Shown: in pieces, positions 1 to 13,267 of the stretch
How the letters are laid out: each line of letters begins with the position of its first letter
Position numbering within the stretch: the stretch's first letter is position 1
Assembly: GCA_002709665.1 (NCBI GenBank)
Contig: PAQK01000037.1
Coordinates: 1 to 39,879 of the forward strand
DNA: 39,879 nucleotides
Direction: 5' to 3'
Source: Gemmatimonadota bacterium
GTDB taxonomy: Bacteria; Latescibacterota; UBA2968; GCA-2709665
Program-made: the position numbers and the translations under genes
Notes under the pieces: model-generated
Told to the model about the DNA's origin: nothing
Database searches by the model: none
Seen by the model: the letters and a program-made list of their open reading frames with translations, nothing else

Positions 1-119
1 TTCTTAGCGGCCTTCTTGGCAACCTTCTTGGCAGGCTTCTTGGCGGCCTTCTTGGCAGGCTTCTTGGCGGCCTTCTTTGCAGCCTTTTTCGCTGGCTTCT
101 TGGCGGCTCTCTTTGCCAT
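1..119 (-). CDS. Lys/Ala-rich histone H1-like DNA-binding protein, 3' part outside window (partial)
   Basis: Reverse strand reads MAKRAAKKPAKKAAKKAAKKPAKKAAKKPAKKVAKKAAK; strong RBS AAGGAGGTGAATGCG before ATG at 119. Confidence 0.8.
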   Translation of the reverse strand, partial: MAKRAAKKPAKKAAKKAAKKPAKKAAKKPAKKVAKKAAK

Positions 120-340
120 CGCATTCACCTCCTTCTTTAAAGATCGAGGGAGGCTAGCCTCCCTCGGACGCTCCGTTTGTAATTCTTCTTGTTGATTTAT
201 TCTAAGCGAGAATATAAGCCCGATGCAGCGAAAGAATCAAGCCCTATCTTCATTCTTGTTGGAATTAGACCAAGGTGGATAGACCATCATCGCAGACACT
301 ACGCTTACAGGCGATGCGTATCTTTGTTGTGATTCAACGC

Positions 341-1813
341 CTATTGCAACCTGTAATTCGGCGCCTCCTTTGTAATGGAAATATCGTGGGCGTGACTTTC
401 TCTTACTCCGGCGGAAGTTACCTTTACGAACTTTCCATTAAGCCGCAACTCTTCGACGTTGCGCGTGCCACAATACCCCATTCCCGCCCTAAGTCCGCCG
501 ACCAATTGGTATATGAATCCAGAGATGGAACCCTTGTAAGGAACCTGACCCTCTATTCCTTCGGGGACGAGCTTTTCGGTCTCGACATCTCCCTGAAAAT
601 ACCGGTCCTTGCTCCCCCTCTGCATTGCACCCAGAGAACCCATCCCCCGGTAGACCTTGAATGTTCGGCCCTGGTAGATGACTGTTTCGCCCGGGCTCTC
701 ATCCGTCCCGGCAAACAGATAACCGATCATTACAGAGTTTGCGCCTGCTGCGATTGCCTTTGCTATGTCCCCGGACTGTGTAACGCCTCCGTCCGCTATA
801 ACGGGAACACCGGCCTCCTGCGCCACTTCCACACAATCCATAATAGCGGTAATCTGTGGAATCCCGACTCCGGCAATGACCCGGGTAGTGCAGATGGCTG
901 AGGGTCCCATACCTACCTTGATGGCATCCGCCCCTGCAGAAATCAAATCCTTGGCTGCCTCTCCTGTGGCAATGTTGCCGGCAACTATCTCCGTATCCGG
1001 ATAATCCGTTTTAACCTTTTCAACTGCCTCAAGAACACCGTGCGAATGTCCGTGAGCGGTGTCCACAACAATAACATCCACGTCTCTTTCAACCAACGCT
1101 CGGATACGTTCTTCGGAGTCGCCTCCTACCCCAACCGCTGCGCCAACACGAAGTCTGCCTATATCGTCTTTACACGCATTGGGGTATTGTGTCTTCTTCT
1201 CAATGTCCTTCACTGTAATCAGACCCTTCAGAATATCCTGGCCATCCACCACCGGCAACTTTTCGATCCTGTGCTCCTGAAGAATTTCCTGAGCCTCTTC
1301 CAACGAAATACCGAGCCTGGCGGTCACCAAGTCCTTTTGGGTCATCACATCTGCCACCTGGCGGCCCACATTCTTTTCGAATCTCAGATCGCGGTTCGTC
1401 AATATACCAACAAGCTTTTTGCTTCGATCAACGATTGGGACACCGGAAATCCGGTACTTGGACATCAGTTCGAGGGCCTCGTGGATGAAATCTTCCGGAG
1501 AAAGTGTCACGGGATCCACAATCATCCCACTCTCTGAGCGTTTTACCTTTTCCACTTCTTCTGCCTGTTTATCGACTGTCAGATTCTTGTGGACAACCCC
1601 AATACCACCCTCCTGAGCCATTGCCACCGCCAACCTGGCCTCGGTTACAGTGTCCATTGCAGCACTGACCAAAGGAATATTCAGCCTGATTCGATTGGTG
1701 AGCCTGGTTCCCAGGTCGACCTCCTTGGGCAACACTTCGGATTTACCGGGAACCAGCAAAATGTCTCCATAGGTCAAACCCTCTTTGATAATCTTGTCAG
1801 TGGACTTGTCCAT
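341..1813 (-). CDS. guaB: Inosine-5'-monophosphate dehydrogenase
   Basis: 490 aa, CBS domains, [11 protein letters not shown]-like loop ([12 protein letters not shown]), [28 protein letters not shown] upstream of ATG. Confidence 0.97.
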
Positions 1814-1904
1814 ACAGCCTCCCTTCAGATAGGATCTGGAACATCCTTCTTAACCGGAAGATTCATCTGAGCAAAATCAGTGGAAATCAGGCAAGTTTTG
1901 GATA

Positions 1905-1936
1905 CAAAAAAGCCCCTTGACAGACGTATCAAGGGG
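1905..1936 (-). terminator. Intrinsic terminator on minus strand upstream of guaB
   Basis: 8-bp stem CCCCTTGA(1913-1920)/TCAAGGGG(1929-1936) followed on the minus strand by T6. Confidence 0.75.
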
Positions 1937-2082
1937 TTTGCGTCAAACCGTACCCGGCCTCACCGGGGTTCTGGTAACAGCAACTCAAGCCCCCGGCATG
2001 GGATGCGAAATCACGATTGGGCAACTTCGTGGCCATCCAGGCCCCTTAAGCGGGTATATTCTCCTGCGTACCAAGAATAGAA
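1906..2082 (-). ncRNA. Candidate structured RNA or attenuator leader between a sigma70-like promoter and an intrinsic terminator, upstream of guaB
   Basis: Promoter TTGACA-17-TAGATT on minus strand; hairpins TATTCT..AGAATA, CACGA..TCGTG, CCCGG..CCGGG, GGTTTG-ACG-CAAACC; enclosing stem UUAAGGGG/CCCCUUGA competes with terminator stem. Confidence 0.45.
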
Positions 2083-2088
2083 TGGACA

Positions 2089-2117
2089 AATCTACGGGAA
2101 TCGATTTAAGGTGTCAA
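2089..2117 (-). promoter_or_regulatory. Sigma70-like promoter (TTGACA, 17 bp, TAGATT)
   Basis: Perfect -35 and near-consensus -10 with 17-bp spacing on minus strand. Confidence 0.6.
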
Positions 2118-2290
2118 CGCCTTTTTCGGACAACATGACAATCGAAGTTGCACAGACAGCGCTACCTTATTGCTACAAGTCTTTTAAAGACAATTCTTTC
2201 TGTATAGAATCATGTTGACCCCCTTGGTTGCTCGACTTATAATCCTCAAAGAACGGTCGATCCCGGAAACTAACTGGAGCGCAGCCGGAT

Positions 2291-2884
2291 ATGCCTGTTT
2301 TATCCAAGTTACTCTTTGCAGTGTTGGTGCTCACACCCATCCTTTTGGCGTGGGTGAAGGGCGATCGAATACTTGATTTTATGGAGGCACGTCGCAAAAA
2401 GCGCAGGCGCCAAAAGAGGAAAAAGAGAACAAGGTCTTTGCCTTTGAGAGAGGACGCCGTTCTTTCCATACTGGATGCAGAGGACAGATGTGATGAAATC
2501 GACGCCCGAATCGCCGGGTCGCTAGCCAGTTACCAGATCCTGCAGAACCGGGACAGGGAGGGAACCGTACTGCCTGTCCTCTTGGAGGCCGAACACATGC
2601 TGCTATCCAGGGAATCCCACTTCAACTCCTATCTGGATATTGCCTGGCTGCAAAGTGAAACCATAGAGATCCTATCCAAGGAAGTATCATTGCTCAGGAA
2701 TATGGCACAACTTGGTCCGCATCAACACCGCCCCGCTGCACCAGCCGGCGCCACCAGTCATCTGATCGAAAATCTTGAAGCCGCCATCAGAAAACGAGCG
2801 GATGTGGATCGAATGCTCGACAATGTCGGGAACCAATCAACCGACAATGATACAGGCTCAAGTTTCGACGCTACAGTAGGCTGA
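2291..2884 (+). CDS. Hypothetical protein, N-terminal TM helix followed by basic stretch
   Basis: 197 aa ORF: LLFAVLVLTPILLAWV then RRKKRRRQKRKKR; helical remainder. Confidence 0.6.
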   Translation: MPVLSKLLFAVLVLTPILLAWVKGDRILDFMEARRKKRRRQKRKKRTRSLPLREDAVLSILDAEDRCDEIDARIAGSLASYQILQNRDREGTVLPVLLEAEHMLLSRESHFNSYLDIAWLQSETIEILSKEVSLLRNMAQLGPHQHRPAAPAGATSHLIENLEAAIRKRADVDRMLDNVGNQSTDNDTGSSFDATVG

Positions 2885-3176
2885 TAACCCCCACAAGAAA
2901 GAATCATAAAGCTTTTTAAAACAATGGTTTGCATCCTACCCCAGGTCTTTTCTCACGGAACTTTTACTTGCCTTTGCTCGTTCAAAAAGCACCCCTTCAA
3001 GGATCCTTGATTTTACCTTGACATCCCATTTTCTATTCATTAGATTTGGCCTTTGTTCTGGTGAATAGTGGTCTATCTTCAGTGTTATTGAAGGCTTAAA
3101 TCTTCATCCTTAGACTGAATCGACCCCAAGGCCTGGCTGTAATTCTACCAGGAGCCTGCCAAGGAGTACCCTCGCG

Positions 3177-4379
3177 ATGAAATCCAACATTCGTTATCTC
3201 ATTGTTGCCCTCATCTGTGGGTCCTTCGTGATGAGCGAAGTGCCAACTACAGAGGCAAAAAGAAAAAAGAAGAAAGAAGAACCCGAACAAGCGCCAGTCG
3301 ACTCTTTGCAGCAATCGAAGAAGCACTTGTCCTTCGGCTACAGGTATTTGAAGAACAAGCAGTATAAAGATGCGGAGATACAACTTACAAGATCCTGGAA
3401 GTTCAATCCGACCAGCCCCAAGGCTGCCTACTATTTGGGTAGGTTGTATAATGAAACTGAAAAGGTTGAGGAGGCCATCAACTGGTTCACCACAGCCATC
3501 CAGTTGAATCCGGCAGGGACAAACGCGAAAAATGCATATTACTTCCTGGGTCAGCTCTACGTTCTACAGGAGAACAGACCGGAAGCGATAAGAGTCTATG
3601 AGATCCTGCTGGACATTGCCCAGACACCTGAAAAGGAAAAGCAGTATCTCCATCACCTCGTAACACTGTATGTTGAAGAGGAAGATTTTGAGACGGCGTT
3701 GACTCATACCCGCCGTTGGGGCGAACTGGCACCGGGAGACCCCGACGTCCAGGACACCATAGCCAAGCTTGCATTGCATACCGGCGAGGATGATGAAGCC
3801 CTTGTTCAAATGGAAAAAGTGCTTGAAATGAACCCTGAGGACTATGCCACCTTACAAACCTTGGCTCAAATGTATGTGCAAAAAGACATGAAACTAAAAG
3901 CCTTTGAGGCATATACAAAACTTCACGATTTTGAGCCCGACAATTTTCTCTATCTGGACCAGCTGCTAACCCTTGGGAAGGATCTCGGCAAAAACCAGAG
4001 ATACCAAAACAGTCTCTTGAGGAAAATGCTGAAGCTCCAACCGAATAATCTAAGCGTTATTGAACGGTTGGTGGACTCCACCGGATCCATCCGAATGGTC
4101 AATCAGGGGCTCAAGCTGGATCCAGGCAGCGGTAAGTTAAATTATATGAAAGGGCAATACTTCTACGACAAATGGAAGAAGTCTGCCGCGAAAGCAGATT
4201 CGATGGACGCGCTCAAATGGTTCAAGAGGGCGAAGAAAGATCCGCAATGGACAGGTAATGCCAAACGAATGATCGACGAACTCGATCCGCCCATCACTGA
4301 AGAAGAGAAAATGCGGCAGAAGTTCTTCAACAAAACAAAGAAGAAAGAAGAGGAGGTGGATATTGAAGGTAAAAAGTAA
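3177..4379 (+). CDS. TPR-repeat protein with signal peptide
   Basis: 400 aa; N-terminal hydrophobic segment; repeats such as PKAAYYLGRLYNETEKVEEAINWFTTAIQLNP. Confidence 0.85.
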   Translation: MKSNIRYLIVALICGSFVMSEVPTTEAKRKKKKEEPEQAPVDSLQQSKKHLSFGYRYLKNKQYKDAEIQLTRSWKFNPTSPKAAYYLGRLYNETEKVEEAINWFTTAIQLNPAGTNAKNAYYFLGQLYVLQENRPEAIRVYEILLDIAQTPEKEKQYLHHLVTLYVEEEDFETALTHTRRWGELAPGDPDVQDTIAKLALHTGEDDEALVQMEKVLEMNPEDYATLQTLAQMYVQKDMKLKAFEAYTKLHDFEPDNFLYLDQLLTLGKDLGKNQRYQNSLLRKMLKLQPNNLSVIERLVDSTGSIRMVNQGLKLDPGSGKLNYMKGQYFYDKWKKSAAKADSMDALKWFKRAKKDPQWTGNAKRMIDELDPPITEEEKMRQKFFNKTKKKEEEVDIEGKK

Positions 4380-4583
4380 TGGGATGTTGACAATATTCTT
4401 TATATCTTGAAGAAATGTTTCTATAGTACATCATTTTAGTCACTTTGATAATCCAAATTCAGAGACAATTCCGTCTTTGAACTTTTTCCAACCGGCGATG
4501 GTGAGTGGCCCTTTATGGTGAATATAAAAGAAGCCTTTTTGGGACCAGCCACTGACGATCCAAAGCACCTGGGGGGATGAAGC

Positions 4584-5210
4584 ATGCTTGAGCTTTTCTT
4601 TGATGGTGGCCCTTTTATGTGGCCGTTACTGATCATGCTGCTCTTTGGAATTGCAGTAAGCTTTGAGCGTTTGTGGTCTCTCAGCCAATCTTCGATCAAC
4701 ACCAGAGAATTCTTTGCTGAAGTTCAGGAAGCCTTGAAACAGCGCGGTCCCGAAGGCGTTGCCGAGGTTTGTTCCAACCATAAAGGCCCGGTTGCTTCGG
4801 TAATTCATGCCGGCCTGCTCAGACTGGACCGAGGAATTGACCACGTAGAAAAGGCGATTGAAGAATCTGGCGCAATCGAAATGGCCTTTCTTGAAAAGGG
4901 AATGGTCTGGTTATCCACTGTGGCCAACATTGCCCCGCTCCTTGGTTTCCTGGGAACGGTGAGTGGTATGATCGGCGCCTTCGACGCTATTGCCCAGGCA
5001 GGCGACGTGGAGCCAAGCATTGTGGCTTCCGGTATCTCAGAAGCCCTAATCACAACAGCATCCGGACTCGTGATTGCGATTCCGATCCAGGCCTTCCATA
5101 ACTTCTTCGTCTCCAAGATCGATAAGATCATCATCGACATGCAGGAGAGTTCCACCCAGTTCGTCGATGAGCTGATCCAGGCCGGCTACGACTCACCAGA
5201 AGGAGAGTAA
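4584..5210 (+). CDS. MotA/TolQ/ExbB proton channel family protein
   Basis: 208 aa; GMVWLSTVANIAPLLGFLGTVSGMIGAFDAIAQAGDVEPSIVASGISEALITTASGLVIAIP. Confidence 0.95.
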   Translation: MLELFFDGGPFMWPLLIMLLFGIAVSFERLWSLSQSSINTREFFAEVQEALKQRGPEGVAEVCSNHKGPVASVIHAGLLRLDRGIDHVEKAIEESGAIEMAFLEKGMVWLSTVANIAPLLGFLGTVSGMIGAFDAIAQAGDVEPSIVASGISEALITTASGLVIAIPIQAFHNFFVSKIDKIIIDMQESSTQFVDELIQAGYDSPEGE

Positions 5211-5213
5211 GTC

Positions 5214-5630
5214 ATGGCCAAGAAGTCAGGGGTCCAGCGAAGGAACAAATCAAATCCCGAGATTCCGACCTCTTCGATGGCGGACATCGCCTTCCTCCTG
5301 ATCGTGTTTTTCCTGGTTACAACCACTATGAACCAGGACAAAGGCATAGGAATGCAGCTCCCGCCGGCTGGGGAGAACAAAAAGATTCAGAAGAAGAATA
5401 TCTGCAATATCTGGGTCAACTCAGTGGGCGATATTTTGATCAACCTGGAATCGGAGATTCCCCTCGGCAGATTAAGGGCTGAAATGGAACGCCGCCTTCG
5501 AGAGAATGAGAAACTCATCGTCTCTCTCAAAGCGGATGAGGAAACTCCGTACACAACATTTATTGATGTCTTGGATGAAGTTAAACTTTCGGGCGCAAAG
5601 CGAATCTCACTTGCTTCACCCGAGAAGTAA
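5214..5630 (+). CDS. ExbD/TolR family protein (copy 1)
   Basis: PTSSMADIAFLLIVFFLVTTTMNQDKGIGMQLPP motif; 138 aa. Confidence 0.93.
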   Translation: MAKKSGVQRRNKSNPEIPTSSMADIAFLLIVFFLVTTTMNQDKGIGMQLPPAGENKKIQKKNICNIWVNSVGDILINLESEIPLGRLRAEMERRLRENEKLIVSLKADEETPYTTFIDVLDEVKLSGAKRISLASPEK

Positions 5631-5660
5631 GTTGTTTCGCCCGAATCAGGAGAATCGTCC

Positions 5661-6071
5661 ATGCCAGACTTTGTGAAAAAGTCAGGGGTGCAAAGCTCAA
5701 TCCCAACCGGCTCAATGGCAGATATTGCATTCCTGCTTCTTATCTTCTTCATGGTAACCACGGTCTTTGTCCGATACCGGATACCTGGCATTGTACTTCC
5801 GAAAGCTGAAAAGGTCGAAGAAATCAAGATGCGTAGACACATCAATTATGTTTGGGTGTCCGCAGACCGAAAAGTTTTCATCAACGACAAACTCGCACCT
5901 ATGGGTGCGGTGGCCGCCACATTTTACGAATTCAGGCGTGTTAACCCAAGACTCATAGTTTCGTTGAAGTGCGATGTACGGGCTCCATACGGGATCGTAT
6001 CAAGGGTCCTGGAAGAGCTCAGAAAGGCGGATGCCCTGAGGGTGAACTTCGCCACCGACAAAGAGAGGTGA
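5661..6071 (+). CDS. ExbD/TolR family protein (copy 2)
   Basis: PTGSMADIAFLLLIFFMVTTVFVRYRIPGIVLPKA; 136 aa. Confidence 0.93.
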   Translation: MPDFVKKSGVQSSIPTGSMADIAFLLLIFFMVTTVFVRYRIPGIVLPKAEKVEEIKMRRHINYVWVSADRKVFINDKLAPMGAVAATFYEFRRVNPRLIVSLKCDVRAPYGIVSRVLEELRKADALRVNFATDKER

Positions 6072-6078
6072 TAAACCG

Positions 6079-6753
6079 ATGGCCTACATTCGCGGCAAGG
6101 ATGTAATCCGGACAAAGAATCCGGAACATGATCTAAAGCAGAGCTATCGGAAGGTGTTCTGGCTGAGCACCGGCATATCCTTTTTCCTGCATGCATTGGC
6201 GGCGATCCTCTTTCCCACCTTCGAAATCCAGGCCGGTGCCGGAAAGAAAGATCAGATCATCATTCAGATGGAGGATATCCCTGAAACCAGGCAGATCCAG
6301 CGTCCACCCCCACCCCCAAGGCCCGCGGTTCCCATCGAGACCGAGAGTGACGATGTCCCGGATGACGTAACCATTGAGACGACCGACCTGGACTTCGATC
6401 AGGCCCCGGTAGATTTGCCACCGCCACCACCACCTGGTTCCACGGATGCTCCCGAAGAGGAGGAAATCCTGGAGTTCTGGAAGGTGGAAGAAAAACCTGG
6501 GCTGAAAAAGAACGTAAAACCCAAATACCCTGAAATTGCAAGGAAGGCCGGACTCGAGGGAAAGGTCTTTGTCAAGTTTATGGTAGGCCGGAATGGACGA
6601 GTTCAACAAGTACAGGTGTTGAGGGGGCAGGAGATCTTCCGCCAGGCCGCCATCGACGCCGTGATGCAGTTCGTCTTCTCGCCGGCCATGCAGAATGACA
6701 AACCGGTAAACGTATGGATGACTCAGGCGATCACCTTCAAGCTGCATGAATAG
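6079..6753 (+). CDS. TonB family protein
   Basis: TM segment, Pro-rich linker, C-terminal KPKYPEIARKAGLEGKVFVKFMVGRNGRVQQVQVLRG. Confidence 0.93.
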   Translation: MAYIRGKDVIRTKNPEHDLKQSYRKVFWLSTGISFFLHALAAILFPTFEIQAGAGKKDQIIIQMEDIPETRQIQRPPPPPRPAVPIETESDDVPDDVTIETTDLDFDQAPVDLPPPPPPGSTDAPEEEEILEFWKVEEKPGLKKNVKPKYPEIARKAGLEGKVFVKFMVGRNGRVQQVQVLRGQEIFRQAAIDAVMQFVFSPAMQNDKPVNVWMTQAITFKLHE

Positions 6754-6786
6754 GCCGCAACGTCTGCTCATCTGATTAACATTCAC

Positions 6787-6830
6787 AAAGGCTGTCGTGA
6801 TCTCCTACGGGAAATTATGATAGCCTTTTG
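6787..6830 (+). terminator. Probable intrinsic terminator after tonB-like gene
   Basis: AAAGGCT...AGCCTTTT stem-loop. Confidence 0.55.
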
Positions 6831-6942
6831 TGCATATGTTGTTATATATTAAAGCGCTTGACAGGGTAAGCGAAATTAGCAATATTACTGTGCGCCTGTT
6901 GGGTTAGCCTTTAAACTGAAAAAAATATACGAGGTCCATTTC

Positions 6943-8169
6943 ATGCTTTTGCGAGTTTTTACCGCCGTTGTCCTCTCTGCTGTCTTACTCGTGCAACCTG
7001 CCTGGACACAGGTCAGTCCGGAGTCCGCCGAGAAGTACAATTCCGGCCAGGACCTGTTCAAGAAACGACGCTATCAGGATGCCCTGGCAGCCTTTGAAGA
7101 CGCGGTGAAACTGGATGCAAAAAATGCGCAGGCCTATCGAGGCATGGCCAAGACCTATCAGAAGCTGAGAAACTACCCGCAGGCAGTTGAATCCTTTCAG
7201 ATGGCCGTCGGAGTAAAACCGGATTATGTGGAAGCCTACTACGAGTTGGGTCAGTTACAGCTCACAACTTTAAGGGAGTATGAGAAGGCCCAGTCGAGCT
7301 TTCAAAGCCTTCTGGAAGTCAATCCGGATTTTCAGGAGGGCAAAGTCAGAGACCTGCTGAAGGCCGCATATGTCAAACACGGGAGTGGCTATCACAGGCA
7401 GAAGAACTACAAAAAGGCTGCTGCACAATACGAAAATGCAACCCAGCTTGATCCCACAGATGCAACGGTATTCTACAACCTGGGCCTCGCCCATAGGTCT
7501 GCCAGGAATTACACGAAAGCCAGGAATGCCTTCACCACTGCCACCGATCTGAATCCCAAGTATGCAAAAGCACACCGGGCACTGGGTGACCTTTACCGCA
7601 TCACAAAAAAGAACAGCCAAGCGATTCGGAGCTATAAGAAGGCTATCGACAGCGATCCCAGTTGCAAGGTCAAGAGTACAATTCACGCTTACATCAACCT
7701 GGGGAAGGTATACACCTCCACAAAGCAGGCCGCCAAAGCTGTTACCATGCTCCAGAAGGCTGTCACCGTATCACCGAAGAATCGCAAAGCAAAAGTCTAC
7801 ATTGCCCTGGGCTTTGCCCACACACAACGCAAGCATTTCAAAAGCGCGGTTTCAGCCTTCACTCAGGCACTCAAGTTCGATGGTAGAAATTCCGAAGCCC
7901 AGTACCGCTTGGCATCCGCACATTTCGAGTTGAAAAACTACCAGAATGCACTGAATGCTGCCAGAAAAGCAACTGGCTCCTCCAAATTCAGAGTGCCCGC
8001 TCATGTGTTGATGGGTGATGTTTTTGATGCGTGGCGCCCCGATGGTTGGAAGGAAAAGGCCATTGCGAACTACAAAAAGGGTTTGAAGGACAGGAGAAAT
8101 AAGAAGTATTGCGAAGACAAGATCGATCGAATCCTGAATCCTATGGGTGAGGAAGTAGAAGGAGAATAG
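6943..8169 (+). CDS. TPR-repeat protein with signal peptide
   Basis: 408 aa; repeated A.YE.A..LDP..A..FYNLGLA units. Confidence 0.9.
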   Translation: MLLRVFTAVVLSAVLLVQPAWTQVSPESAEKYNSGQDLFKKRRYQDALAAFEDAVKLDAKNAQAYRGMAKTYQKLRNYPQAVESFQMAVGVKPDYVEAYYELGQLQLTTLREYEKAQSSFQSLLEVNPDFQEGKVRDLLKAAYVKHGSGYHRQKNYKKAAAQYENATQLDPTDATVFYNLGLAHRSARNYTKARNAFTTATDLNPKYAKAHRALGDLYRITKKNSQAIRSYKKAIDSDPSCKVKSTIHAYINLGKVYTSTKQAAKAVTMLQKAVTVSPKNRKAKVYIALGFAHTQRKHFKSAVSAFTQALKFDGRNSEAQYRLASAHFELKNYQNALNAARKATGSSKFRVPAHVLMGDVFDAWRPDGWKEKAIANYKKGLKDRRNKKYCEDKIDRILNPMGEEVEGE

Positions 8170-8207
8170 ATATCGAAATAATCCCCGGATTCGGGGCGGT
8201 GATGGGA

Positions 8208-8230
8208 GGGGGCTCAGAGGGCCCCTTTTC
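8208..8230 (+). terminator. Intrinsic terminator
   Basis: GGGGC-TCAGAGG-GCCCC followed by TTTT. Confidence 0.6.
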
Positions 8231-8465
8231 CATTTGAGGTAATCTGCAATAACCCGTTAGACTCATAGAGGTTATGTGAGTTTTCTCCAAGATAACATTA
8301 AAGCGGCAATATTTTTCGTCGATATAAATAGAGCTCACATAAAGAACATATAAACAGTGTACTTAGGGCCGTCCGCACCAACCATTTTCGAAATTTCAAG
8401 TGGTAGGTGCGATTCCCCCATGGGGTCAAAAACTGGACCCCAATAGTCCATTCGAGGAAATCATC

Positions 8466-11400
8466 ATGCCAGACGAAAGAGAAACCCCAACTCCCCCTGA
8501 GAATCAGGAACGCGAAGCGTCTCTTGACCAAGAAACTCTCGACGCACTGGTCGGCGACTCGGGCAGCGAGGACACGAAAGATCTAGAATCTTTATTGTCC
8601 AACCTGGACGGTGTCGATGATTCGGACGAAGGGCCTTCTGAAGGTGAAGCCGATGCCAGCGATATGGATAACATGGAGGCCCTGATCGATCAAATGGAAT
8701 CAGACGTTGATGCTCCTGCAGAGGAAACTCAGACGGATGAGGCACCCTCAGAAGCCGAGCGTGACGAGATGAACGACCTTCTATATCAGGACACCATCGC
8801 TGATGTGGATCAGGCAGACGGAGAACCTGAAGAGAGTGCCACCGATGAGCAGGAGGAGTCTACAGAAGACGATCTGGAATCTCTATTGTCCGACCTCGAT
8901 GGACAGGATGAACCCGAGGATTTGGCCACCCTGTTGGATGAGACCGACGATTCCGCGGATGTCGAAGCATCATCCGATGTGGACTCCGAAGAAATCGATG
9001 AAGACCCGGAGTCTCTCTTGGCGGAACTGGATGGTGAGGACGTTTCATCTACTGAAGAGATCGACACCGATGACACACCCGAAAAATCGACAGAAGAGGT
9101 GGTCGTAGAGGATCTGGAATCGGTCCTGGAAGAGACAGCGGATGAGGATGTTTCTTCAGGGGAAGGTGAAGAGGACCTTGCAGGAGAAATTGAAGCGTTA
9201 CTCGAAGATGACAAAGAAGTCTCGGACGCAGATGAAACACAAGAGGGTTCCGGCGACGAGGAAACCGCAGCGACCGACGACACGGAAGAGGACCTAGATG
9301 CACTACTCGAAGGACTGGACACTGAATCCGCGGAATCTGAGGACGTTGAGGCGGAGATTGAGCTAGAACTGGAACCGGCTGAGGAGGATGATACAGAAAC
9401 TCCGGAGCCAGAGGTCGAGGAAACAACACTTGAGTCGGAAGACGGAAGCAGCGATGAATCCACGCAATCTGATGAAGATGTGTCGGAATTGGATCTGGAC
9501 GAAGCCAAGGACAATGAAAGTCCGGACGATCAGCTTGATGAATTGATCGAGGACATCATTGATGAGGATGCAGCCGGTGATTCGGAAACCGAAGAAGGTG
9601 TCGCAGAGGAGGAAGTTTCAGAAGAGGACGTCGCGGAATTACTTGGGGATGATGAAACCCTCCTGGAGGATGTGAACGCAGGGGCTGAGGACAAACAAAA
9701 GGAACCTGAGGAAGGCGCAGGAGATCTGGACGATCTTTTGGATGATCTAGATTCAGGCGCTCTGGATGAAGCCTCGGATGAAGATTCCGACGACCTTGAT
9801 TCGCTTCTGGATGGCCTGGACGACAGCGACGCCGGCGATGATGTCTCCGATGAGATGAGCCTGGACCTGGACGAAGAAGGAGACGACGATCTTGATTCGA
9901 TGTTCGACGACTTGGACACCGATGACGAGTCACCTGAGGAAGTCGATGCCACAGATGACGACGATCTTGGTGACCTGTTCGATGAGAACTTGAACGTGGG
10001 AGTTGAAAAGGATGTTGCCCACATCTTGGCTACAGGAGAACCCGCTCCGGAGTCAGGTGACGATTCGTTGCTGGATGACGACATTCTCGACGGCTTCAAA
10101 AGCGTTCAGGAGAGTATTGTTTCCGGTGGGGAGGAGGCAGGCAGCATTACCGGCACCATCATGCTTTTGGATGATGACGAAGACAATCGCACGTTGTTCA
10201 AGGACGCACTGGACGTATCGGACGAAACCTATAATTACATCGAAGTCGACACGACCGATAAAGCCCTTGAAACCCTTTCTTCTCAGAACGCCAGCCTCAT
10301 CCTGATGAACCTGGACGGCAACACCGGAGATGCAGCTTCGTTTCTCAAACGGCTTTCATCCAGCCAGGAATTGCCGAGCATCCCCATAGTCGTCAACAGC
10401 ACCGAGAACGACCAGATCGAGGAAGCGATACGGGCAGGCGCAACGGATTATTTTTCACGTCCGCTGGATGTTATGGATGTGGAGTACCAGGTACCCAAGA
10501 AGATCTCGAATCTTATCAAGCTTCAGAAGGCCGAGCACCTGCTTGCCGAAGGCTTGGGGGACGATCAGTCAGCCACAGACTCTCAAGACTCCGATGACCT
10601 GGGTCTCGACAGCGATATGGACGAGTTCGACGATCTGATGCTGGATGACGGTATTGAAGATGAGGACGACGCGTTGCGCCCCGAGGACCTGATAGCAGGA
10701 GTATCATCGGGAGGTGGAGGAGCGGCTACAGCCACACGCAAGAAAGGCAAGAAACGACTCATACCCATTACAGATCAAAGACGGATGATCCGGGAACGTG
10801 AGCGGAATGCGTTTGCCACCAGAGACCAATCCAGAAAACTTCCCCTGATCCTGGGCATGGCTCTCCTGGTTATCTTTTCCGCCGGACTCTCCGCAGTCGC
10901 AGTAAACTACGTAATGAACCAGAGACAACAGGAAGTCGCTACTGTCACACCTGCGGCACCACCCAAACCAGCTACTGTCTTGCAGCAACCCAAGTTTGCT
11001 CAGAAAGACTTCGAGATGGCGAAGCAGCGAACCGAACGCCCCAACACATTCCAACGTCAGGCGGACGAAGCCAAGATCCGGATTCGTCGAACTGTCCAGG
11101 AACTGGAGAGTTCCGGAGGCGCCTGGTGGTCCCCCTGGCGAGTAATGCGCAGTACAGGCGTATCTCTTGACAGGCTTGTAAACCGGAGGCAGGTCTCAGA
11201 TATTATGGACGCCTTCGGGGTCAACCAGGCAACCGTAAATGCAGGACTCGGAAACAGTTCAACACTGGATTATCTTGCCAGTGTCGGGTTCGACATGAGA
11301 GGCAAGAGTGCGGATGAACTTAATGCAAGAGAGACCTTCGAATTACTCTCCGCCCGTCAGATCAAGAACACCAACCAGATCGTGGACATCCTCTCCTCGC

Positions 11401-11615
11401 TTCAGGATAAACTTGCAAAAGACCGGGCGCAGCAGGCACGAAGAAGAGCGAAGCAGAAGAAGACGAGCGAAACTGCGGCACTGGACCGCAAGCCTGAGGT
11501 TTCGGCGTCCTCCACGTACAGCACAGCTTCTATCGAGACACATCGGATTCACACCAGCAAGGTGGCACAATTTGAACCCTTGACGGAGCACCATGATTTC
11601 TGGCGTAGTACGTAA
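8466..11615 (+). CDS. Very acidic protein with D/E-rich repeats, degenerate response-regulator receiver-like domain, TM helix and C-terminal helical domain
   Basis: Start moved from 8400 to ATG 8466 (GAGGAA RBS). IMLLDDDEDNRTLF...LILMNLDG...GATDYFSRPLDV receiver-like core; TM LPLILGMALLVIFSAGLSAVAV. Confidence 0.85.
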   Translation: MPDERETPTPPENQEREASLDQETLDALVGDSGSEDTKDLESLLSNLDGVDDSDEGPSEGEADASDMDNMEALIDQMESDVDAPAEETQTDEAPSEAERDEMNDLLYQDTIADVDQADGEPEESATDEQEESTEDDLESLLSDLDGQDEPEDLATLLDETDDSADVEASSDVDSEEIDEDPESLLAELDGEDVSSTEEIDTDDTPEKSTEEVVVEDLESVLEETADEDVSSGEGEEDLAGEIEALLEDDKEVSDADETQEGSGDEETAATDDTEEDLDALLEGLDTESAESEDVEAEIELELEPAEEDDTETPEPEVEETTLESEDGSSDESTQSDEDVSELDLDEAKDNESPDDQLDELIEDIIDEDAAGDSETEEGVAEEEVSEEDVAELLGDDETLLEDVNAGAEDKQKEPEEGAGDLDDLLDDLDSGALDEASDEDSDDLDSLLDGLDDSDAGDDVSDEMSLDLDEEGDDDLDSMFDDLDTDDESPEEVDATDDDDLGDLFDENLNVGVEKDVAHILATGEPAPESGDDSLLDDDILDGFKSVQESIVSGGEEAGSITGTIMLLDDDEDNRTLFKDALDVSDETYNYIEVDTTDKALETLSSQNASLILMNLDGNTGDAASFLKRLSSSQELPSIPIVVNSTENDQIEEAIRAGATDYFSRPLDVMDVEYQVPKKISNLIKLQKAEHLLAEGLGDDQSATDSQDSDDLGLDSDMDEFDDLMLDDGIEDEDDALRPEDLIAGVSSGGGGAATATRKKGKKRLIPITDQRRMIRERERNAFATRDQSRKLPLILGMALLVIFSAGLSAVAVNYVMNQRQQEVATVTPAAPPKPATVLQQPKFAQKDFEMAKQRTERPNTFQRQADEAKIRIRRTVQELESSGGAWWSPWRVMRSTGVSLDRLVNRRQVSDIMDAFGVNQATVNAGLGNSSTLDYLASVGFDMRGKSADELNARETFELLSARQIKNTNQIVDILSSLQDKLAKDRAQQARRRAKQKKTSETAALDRKPEVSASSTYSTASIETHRIHTSKVAQFEPLTEHHDFWRST

Positions 11616-11645
11616 AACCAGTGGGAGAATTCTATTCCCCTGCCA

Positions 11646-12383
11646 ATGATAGGAATAGCGTGTGGGTTCCGCCACACGACGCCGGCCCCATACGATCGGA
11701 ACACCAGTCTTGAGCACACCGTGCGGGAGCAATATGTAAACGCGGTCATTCAAGCAGGAGGAGTTCCGATACTACTTCCTGCCGTGGAGGATGTGAAATC
11801 CCTCGACCGGATCGAGTCTGCCATAGACGGTCTGCTGCTTCCCGGTGGAGATGACATATCACCGGTCCACTATGGACAGGAGCCACATCCGGCTCTCGGA
11901 GATCTCTCCCCCGAATGTGATGAAAGTCAGCTGCATATCACACGCCGCATATTAGCTCAGGATCGTCCCAAGCCCGTTCTGGCCATCTGCCGGGGCGCAC
12001 AGCTTCTGAATGTTGCGGCAGGCGGCACCCTGTTTCAAGATATTCCCTCCCAGATTCAAAACCCGATTCAGCACCGGCAAGTTTCCCATACCAGTGTTGC
12101 CCTGCATACCATCCATATAAAGACAGGTTCGATTCTGCACACGGTATTCGGTTCGGAACTCATCCAATCGAACAGCTATCACCATCAGGCAATCGACAGG
12201 ATAGCGAACGGATTTGTCCTGTCGGCCGAGTCCTCGGATGGTGTGATCGAAGCTATCGAAATGCCGGGAGCTCCATTTGTTGTGGGCATTCAGTGTCATC
12301 CCGAGGCACTGTGCGAGGTGGATCCTATCTACCAAACCCTCTTCGGCGAATTCGTAATGGCCACAATCTCTCACAAGTCCTGA
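11646..12383 (+). CDS. Gamma-glutamyl-gamma-aminobutyrate hydrolase family protein (peptidase C26)
   Basis: LLPGGDDISPVHYG, PVLAICRGAQLLNVAAGGTLFQDI, GIQCHPE. Confidence 0.93.
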   Translation: MIGIACGFRHTTPAPYDRNTSLEHTVREQYVNAVIQAGGVPILLPAVEDVKSLDRIESAIDGLLLPGGDDISPVHYGQEPHPALGDLSPECDESQLHITRRILAQDRPKPVLAICRGAQLLNVAAGGTLFQDIPSQIQNPIQHRQVSHTSVALHTIHIKTGSILHTVFGSELIQSNSYHHQAIDRIANGFVLSAESSDGVIEAIEMPGAPFVVGIQCHPEALCEVDPIYQTLFGEFVMATISHKS

Positions 12384-12401
12384 TTTGACCCATTCCCCAG
12401 A

Positions 12402-13267
12402 ATGAAGAAAGAACCGTTTCTCTACGCCATCTCCTTTGTGATCGACACCGGCTTCGGCGTGGTTGGAATCACCGTTCCTCTCTTAGCTCTGCAACTGGGA
12501 GCAACCTACAATGAATTGGGGCTCATCGGTGCTGTCAGCTTCTGGTCTACTCCCTCGGTTCCGTAGTCTCCGGCAGGTTGTCGGAGCGTCTGGAATACCG
12601 CAGAACCATGATCGTTGCGAGCTCCCTGGCCGTCCCGATGGTGCTCCTCTTCAATTTTGCTTCCACGGTCATCCAGATTCTCCTGCTTTCCGGAATTATT
12701 CGTCTTTCACTCACCGGACTCTGGCCTTCCAAGCAAGCCTGGCTGGGTAGTGGCAAGGATCGGTCCGAGTTGCTGAATACATTGGGAAAGTACAATGTCT
12801 GCTGGGGGCTTGGAATTCTGGTCGGACCGTTAGCCGGAGGAGCGCTTTACAGCCTTGGAACCGCCATGCCTTTCGTATTCGTTTCCTCGCTAATGGGGCT
12901 CATTTCCATTGTCCTCATCCTTTTGAAAGTACGTGATGAGTATGCTGATAAACCCTCTCCCTATCAACCACAGCATCAAGCCAACGCAAGACAGTTTCTG
13001 CCTATCGCCTGGAGCGCGAACTTCGCTGGGTTTTTCAGCGCCGGGGCGATCTGTGCACTTTTCCCTAAGCTCACGAGCGATCTTGACATTTCGTCCGACA
13101 TTCTCGGCCTGCTCCTGTCTCTAACAGGTGGGGTCGCTGCCCAGCACATTGGATCCGGGGCCCCCTATCTGCTTGCCGCCGTCGTAATTTTTATAGTCGT
13201 CCTTTTGCAAACATATTTGCACCAAGGCATCTCGAAATCCGGACTGTCCTGTCAACCCGGAGACTGA
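12402..13267 (+). pseudogene. MFS transporter remnant with frameshift and probable internal deletion
   Basis: MKKEPFLYAISFVIDTGFGVVGITVPLLALQLGATYNELGLIGAVSF then stop at 12564; reading continues in another frame as VYSLGSVVSGRLSERLEYRRTM... Confidence 0.8.

Follow-up and report, generated by a model that had tools for sequence, protein, structure and literature searches.

We favour, with somewhat better than even confidence and from comparison of sequences among relatives, the reading that the guaB leader in the window (the whole stretch of 39,879 nucleotides that was analysed) is a leader-peptide transcription attenuator that would work by direct ribosome occlusion, the principle of pyrBI and pyrE. 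IMP dehydrogenase catalyses the committed step towards GTP, and guaB makes XMP en route. Control of purine genes at the RNA level is mostly by riboswitches, while that of pyrimidine genes includes ribosome-coupled attenuation. If true, the reading would extend ribosome-coupled attenuation from pyrimidine to purine genes, and close coupling of transcription and translation would become readable from genome sequence in an uncultured phylum. A leader-peptide attenuator of guaB was not found in the literature searched, a search that most subscription papers fell outside.

Promoter, terminator and their conservation

The leader lies on the minus strand ahead of guaB (Table 1). Both the promoter and the intrinsic terminator named in the preliminary description are present. 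The promoter is the sole promoter-like site on this strand from 2600 to guaB, and transcription is predicted to start at about 2082. The whole terminator, at 1936-1905 on the minus strand, reads CCCCTTGATACGTCTGTCAAGGGG and then CTTTTTTG. In the window sequence alone it is unremarkable singly, since one terminator-like site was found and 1.4 are expected in shuffles. The window leader fold is in modest excess over shuffles (z -1.66; 9 of 200 shuffles were equally good).

Table 1. Features of the guaB leader in the window
Feature	Position	Strand	Remarks
Sigma-70-type promoter TTGACA-17-TAGATT	2117-2089	minus	10/12 consensus matches
Shine-Dalgarno-like AAGGGG of leader ORF	2047-2042	minus	core of the UUAAGGGG strand
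Leader ORF, 35 codons, MATKLPNRDFASHAGGLSCCYQNPGEAGYGLTQTP	ATG 2036 to TGA 1931-1929	minus	predicted coding
Terminator hairpin CCCCTTGA-TACGTCTG-TCAAGGGG	1936-1913	minus	10 bp, 4-nt loop, about -15.5 kcal/mol
Terminator U-tract CTTTTTTG	1912-1905	minus	its G opens the GTAT kept by most relatives
guaB, IMP dehydrogenase, 490 aa	1813-341	minus	GGGAGG Shine-Dalgarno just 5' of 1813

The comparison covered 22 guaB loci from nine genera (g1 to g9) in three families (f1 to f3) of Latescibacterota. The close relatives that are publicly named belong to Candidatus Latescibacterota, some of them under the label Gemmatimonadota, and the guaB orthologues of close relatives are 79-83% identical. A strong promoter, TTGACA with a TATATT-like -10 element, is found about 150-215 nt 5' of the hairpin in 22 of 22 loci. 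A leader of about 100 nt with the CCCCUUGA...UCAAGGGG hairpin is kept in every relative (22/22), and the first nine pairs of the terminator stem are standard in all of them (22/22). The hairpin is near letter-identical across genera, with CCCCUUGAUGCGUCUGCGUCAAGGGG in several and small changes elsewhere. It is followed by a U-tract and then GUAU in most relatives. The GUAU directly 3' of the U-tract (window 1905-1902, minus strand) itself persists in nearly every relative, an unusual degree of conservation for sequence that follows a terminator. When a degenerate pattern of the hairpin was searched for, it occurred essentially once per relative genome, and there always before guaB. The exceptions are one unrelated extra match in genome G007 and the lack of a match in g9, the stem of which is a variant. 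A scan of wider genome contigs with the hairpin pattern returned mostly ordinary terminators of unrelated bacteria.

Beyond these loci, the 330 nt 5' of guaB were free of a terminator in all 26 genes taken from other bacterial families, and a leader of this type is absent from the more distant readable guaB regions of Latescibacterota. A second copy of the leader was looked for at guaA of the same clade and is absent there.

The spacer from terminator to guaB measures 45-96 nt in most genera. In none of the relatives does this spacer hold a promoter-like site that matches at 9/12 or better, the best reaching 8. The other, upstream neighbour of the leader varies between genera while the leader stays beside guaB. 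With no such promoter and with changing neighbours, guaB is most likely transcribed through the terminator. The comparison across genera thus places the element beyond chance, although the single-sequence statistics are weak, and we judge the attenuator to be probably genuine and specific to guaB. The earlier idea of an attenuator is strengthened to this extent, promoter and terminator being kept before guaB in nine genera. The alternative offered there, a stand-alone sRNA, loses likelihood from the fact that the element keeps the guaB side while the other neighbour changes.

The U-tract is poor in two genera. It is weak in g3, where it reads UUUC(C/U)UGU, and nearly absent in g9 (L038), so termination is doubtful in both. 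In g9, the most distant genus (L038:3048-3236, minus strand), the hairpin CUCCUUGG...GUCAAGGAG is kept while the U-tract is almost gone. Retention of the hairpin despite the near loss of the U-tract may hint at a role besides intrinsic termination.

An apparent second copy of the leader in the genome, on contig C18, was rejected as a duplication and is a contig-end overlap. Positions 1-13124 of the window overlap 141-13264 of contig C18 in the same assembly (L224) over 13.1 kb at 99.6% identity, which indicates one locus assembled twice. The overlap probably reflects strain variation, and overlaps of this sort may make up part of the assembly's contamination, estimated at 8.8%.

Several other features were seen around guaB and in related genomes. 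The guaB leader promoter has a strong divergent promoter-like site, TTGACC-17-TATAAT (11/12), at its back; this site, at window 2215-2243 on the plus strand, faces a 197-aa ORF (2291-2884, plus). Further along, 3177-6071 (plus) holds a TPR protein and then an ExbB-like and two ExbD-like small membrane proteins in an apparent operon, the names being given from sequence appearance. At 1-195, beside guaB, the plus frame reads FLAAFLAGFLAA repeats and the minus frame would be Lys/Ala-rich and histone H1-like; L035 has a comparable Lys/Ala-rich stretch close to its guaB. The guaA ORFs of L212-L223 (e.g., G000:C65:8836-9336) are about 600-660 aa, with tandem GMP_synt_C matches in most genomes that have a match. 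They are longer than usual bacterial GuaA and are reminiscent of the eukaryote-type GMP synthetase.

The leader open reading frame and the competing stem

The roughly 175 nt of the leader had been described as free of ORFs. This was an error, as the leader holds a predicted ORF of its own with a Shine-Dalgarno-like sequence (Table 1). The spacing from AAGGGG to the ATG is 5 nt, and the TGA falls within the 5' arm of the terminator. An ORF in the equivalent position is present in 21 of the 22 loci. At 17 of the 22 (seven genera, one of them with a GTG start) it has about 30-40 codons, is preceded by a Shine-Dalgarno-like sequence and has its end at -6 to +8 nt relative to the stem. In g3 it has 27-40 codons and stops 10-16 nt short of the stem, and g9 (L038) is without an ATG ORF. 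Relative to the stem, the stop ends at +8 in g1, g2, and g5, at -1 in g6, g7, g8, and L036, at -2 in most of g4, at -6 in L027, and at -16 to -10 in g3. The conserved order is promoter, ORF, stop codon at the stem, terminator, and guaB, with no promoter-like site between the last two.

This placement is far from what shuffled sequences give. In 7 of 9 genera there is an ORF that starts with ATG, has 25 codons or more, carries a Shine-Dalgarno-like sequence and ends at -17 to +8 nt of the stem, and the number is 8 of 9 if GTG starts are allowed; in dinucleotide-preserving shuffles, such an ORF ending occurs in 2-16% of cases per genus. The joint P values of about 2e-7 (ATG) and about 3e-7 (GTG allowed) are guides, as the interval of -17 to +8 was set after looking and the genera are related and not independent samples. 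The start context GGCCTGGATGG(C/T)C is common to the window and the sister genus g2 (L020), and the columns aligned to the window Shine-Dalgarno form a G-rich Shine-Dalgarno region in the relatives. Indels within the ORF, seen in g4 and g3, are multiples of three, and single-base and 4-nt indels lie just outside it. The substitution pattern does not prove coding because pN/pS in g4 (0.5-0.6) is within its column-shuffled controls (0.9, sd 0.45; 119 of 500 as low) and pN/pS in g3 is near 1.

At the peptide level, a profile built from the g4 peptide (MHQRFYTYCCRKKRRITPPPGLRAECVTVPAS and relatives) finds the leader frames of g2 (RRLAPPIMGPGQVCVPA, P 0.007), g7 (CRKRWPAPLLNPGDGCVT, P 0.019), and g6 (RKRRPTP, P 0.035), all of which share with it a basic stretch followed by (T/A)P. 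The same profile has no clear match in g1, g3, g5, g8, and g9, and in the profile comparison the window peptide has no detectable similarity to the g4 peptide. Nor does it show recognisable homology with the leader peptides of other genera. Several of the relatives' leader peptides contain PP or PPP. Overall, the leader peptide varies strongly and the distance from stop to terminator is kept. From the position, start signals and indels of the ORF we infer that it is likely translated.

Two other explanations of the ORF and terminator were weighed. The hairpin could be a constitutive partial terminator that lowers guaB by a fixed factor, the ORF being fortuitous. The g4 pN/pS values within shuffled controls and the lack of a recognisably conserved peptide in g1 or g8 agree with this, but the position of the ORF relative to the stem is kept far better than chance and its indels are multiples of three, and we regard a fixed terminator of this sort as very unlikely. 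Alternatively, the promoter, Shine-Dalgarno, ORF, stop, and terminator form a complete unit and could be an independent small gene for a basic Pro/Arg/Cys-containing protein or a dual-function sRNA, with guaB using another promoter. The unrelated cyanobacterial Yfr1 sRNA offers a precedent, as it adjoins guaB outside its leader (PMC1242208). Against such a gene stand the spacer without a promoter-like site, the linkage to guaB across nine genera with a changing neighbour on the other side, and the absence of the hairpin pattern elsewhere in the genomes save for the one unrelated match. A peptide that is highly variable next to a terminator at a kept distance also argues against it, and we consider an independent gene unlikely.

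The preliminary description had instead proposed a switch between the terminator and an antiterminator stem sharing one strand with it. The two 8-bp complementarities exist as letters, but the competing stem (2049-2042 with 1936-1929) is not conserved. In the relatives, the stem is paired in 60% of alignment cells, as against 59% with partners shuffled, and thus pairs no more than chance. Enforcing it in the window gives -59.0 vs -68.2 kcal/mol, a cost of about 9 kcal/mol, and the role that best fits its 5' strand is that of the leader ORF's Shine-Dalgarno sequence. When a common RNA fold was searched for across the nine genera, only the terminator was shared. Because the competing stem is unconserved and costly and the terminator is the only common structure, the antiterminator was rejected and an aptamer is unsupported. 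A trp-type attenuator was likewise rejected, since the window ORF has no codon run and the competing stem is unconserved.

The preliminary description could not match the leader to familiar riboswitch classes. In Rfam 15, no family reached its gathering threshold in the window or in any of nine relatives; when the cutoff around the leader was relaxed to E up to 10, only a plant-virus pseudoknot (E 9.5) appeared. 6S RNA (RF00013) has no match in the window or the whole genome. An aptamer-type riboswitch, in which the roughly 100 nt before the terminator would bind a ligand and compete through the antiterminator stem, can draw on the two complementarities in the window and on a pairing probability of about 0.4 for the competing stem before the 3' arm of the terminator is made. 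It can also draw on a 13-bp stem specific to g4, which lies inside the leader ORF, shows a few compensatory changes and might be a pause hairpin. The chance-level pairing and energetic cost of the competing stem, the lack of a second common structure, the empty Rfam search and the modest z score of the window leader fold all weigh against a riboswitch, which we hold to be improbable.

Proposed mechanism and candidate signal

In the favoured reading, that of ribosome occlusion, RNA polymerase would start at about 2082 and transcribe an ORF of about 35 codons whose stop lies at the 5' arm of the terminator or within it. A ribosome following closely would, on the last codons or the stop, cover about 9-19 nt of the stem. 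The covered stem would block the hairpin, and transcription would go on into guaB. If translation lagged or the leader were untranslated, the hairpin would form and transcription would stop. This control of read-through by the ORF, which we infer from the conserved layout, fits a footprint model in which 11 nt are covered past the stop. In that model the stem is reduced from -15 to -25 kcal/mol to 0 to -4 kcal/mol in g1, g2, and g4 to g8; the stop codon of g3, 10-16 nt away, is beyond reach.

The effect of stop codon position on termination is known from experiments in Escherichia coli. Li et al. shifted a stop codon closer to a terminator that followed it, from a distance of 28 bp to one of 5 bp, and termination fell from about 90% to less than 10%. 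The effect needs coupled translation, and they also cite a steeper effect of stop distance for pyrBI (PMC4824070). In short leaders such as pyrBI, pauses of RNA polymerase let the ribosome catch up (PMC4824070). When polyproline precedes the terminator of pyrL, read-through comes to depend on EF-P (PMC5021804), a case that is of interest because several of the leader peptides described above contain PP or PPP.

The identity of the signal is conjectured from leader composition. The most plausible signal is GTP supply, which would act through pausing of RNA polymerase in the G/GU-rich stretch before the stem. At low GTP, the polymerase would pause before the hairpin, the leader ribosome would catch up, the terminator would be masked, and guaB would be on. 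In its last 60 nt the leader has a G content of 35%, up from 24% before (P 1e-4, with composition bins set after seeing the sequences), and this stretch contains GUGUG in 6 of 9 genera (P 1e-4). Matches to the elemental-pause consensus are barely above those in shuffles (16 vs 11.4). GUGUG also encodes the peptide Cys-Val, and hence the pausing and peptide readings are inseparable here. Under GTP sensing, an arrest-prone basic, proline-containing leader peptide would possibly make an extra contribution in some genera. Alternative signals are translation rate, ppGpp, and an arrest-prone nascent peptide. The fuller proposal, that the leader is a GTP-sensing counterpart of pyrBI giving feedback control of purine synthesis without a repressor or riboswitch, with an arrest-prone peptide possibly contributing, is tentative, and our analysis leaves it rather unlikely. 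If true, it would describe purine feedback control in a phylum without genetics.

Relation to known systems

The leader shares single features with several known elements. Cyanobacterial Yfr1 is also a small RNA gene beside guaB; it lies between guaB and trxA, has its own mapped start site, and its cotranscription with either was judged unlikely (PMC1242208). Unlike Yfr1, the leader described here is without an Rfam match. The guanine (purine), PRPP, and ppGpp riboswitches likewise place purine genes under terminator control, whereas no Rfam match and no conserved aptamer are found here. The trp and his leader-peptide attenuators also combine a short leader ORF with an intrinsic terminator. 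The guaB leader differs from them in having no regulatory codon run and no conserved antiterminator or protector hairpin.

The closest resemblance is to pyrE and pyrBI. As in attenuators of this type, a promoter and a terminator lie 5' of the gene with no second promoter between and no conserved antiterminator, and the ORF ends at or beyond the 5' arm, except that g3 falls 10-16 nt short and g9 is without an ORF. In E. coli pyrE, the stop codon of rph/orfE stands just before the terminator. The guaB leader is like pyrE in that the stop is a few nucleotides from the stem and a ribosome at the end of the ORF would block the hairpin; it is unlike pyrE in that the upstream ORF there is the full gene rph, whereas here it is a leader ORF of 27-40 codons. 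With E. coli pyrBI (pyrL) it shares a nucleotide-biosynthesis gene behind a promoter and a short ORF that reaches an intrinsic terminator. No sequence similarity between the two is expected, and NTP-sensitive pausing, a feature of pyrBI, is only conjectured here. In pyrBI the leader ORF encloses the terminator (PMC4824070), whereas here the end of the ORF falls at the 5' arm of the stem or within it. The target here is guaB, a purine gene, and not pyrB, and for guaB we propose what holds for pyrBI, a ribosome that masks the terminator with no antiterminator structure.
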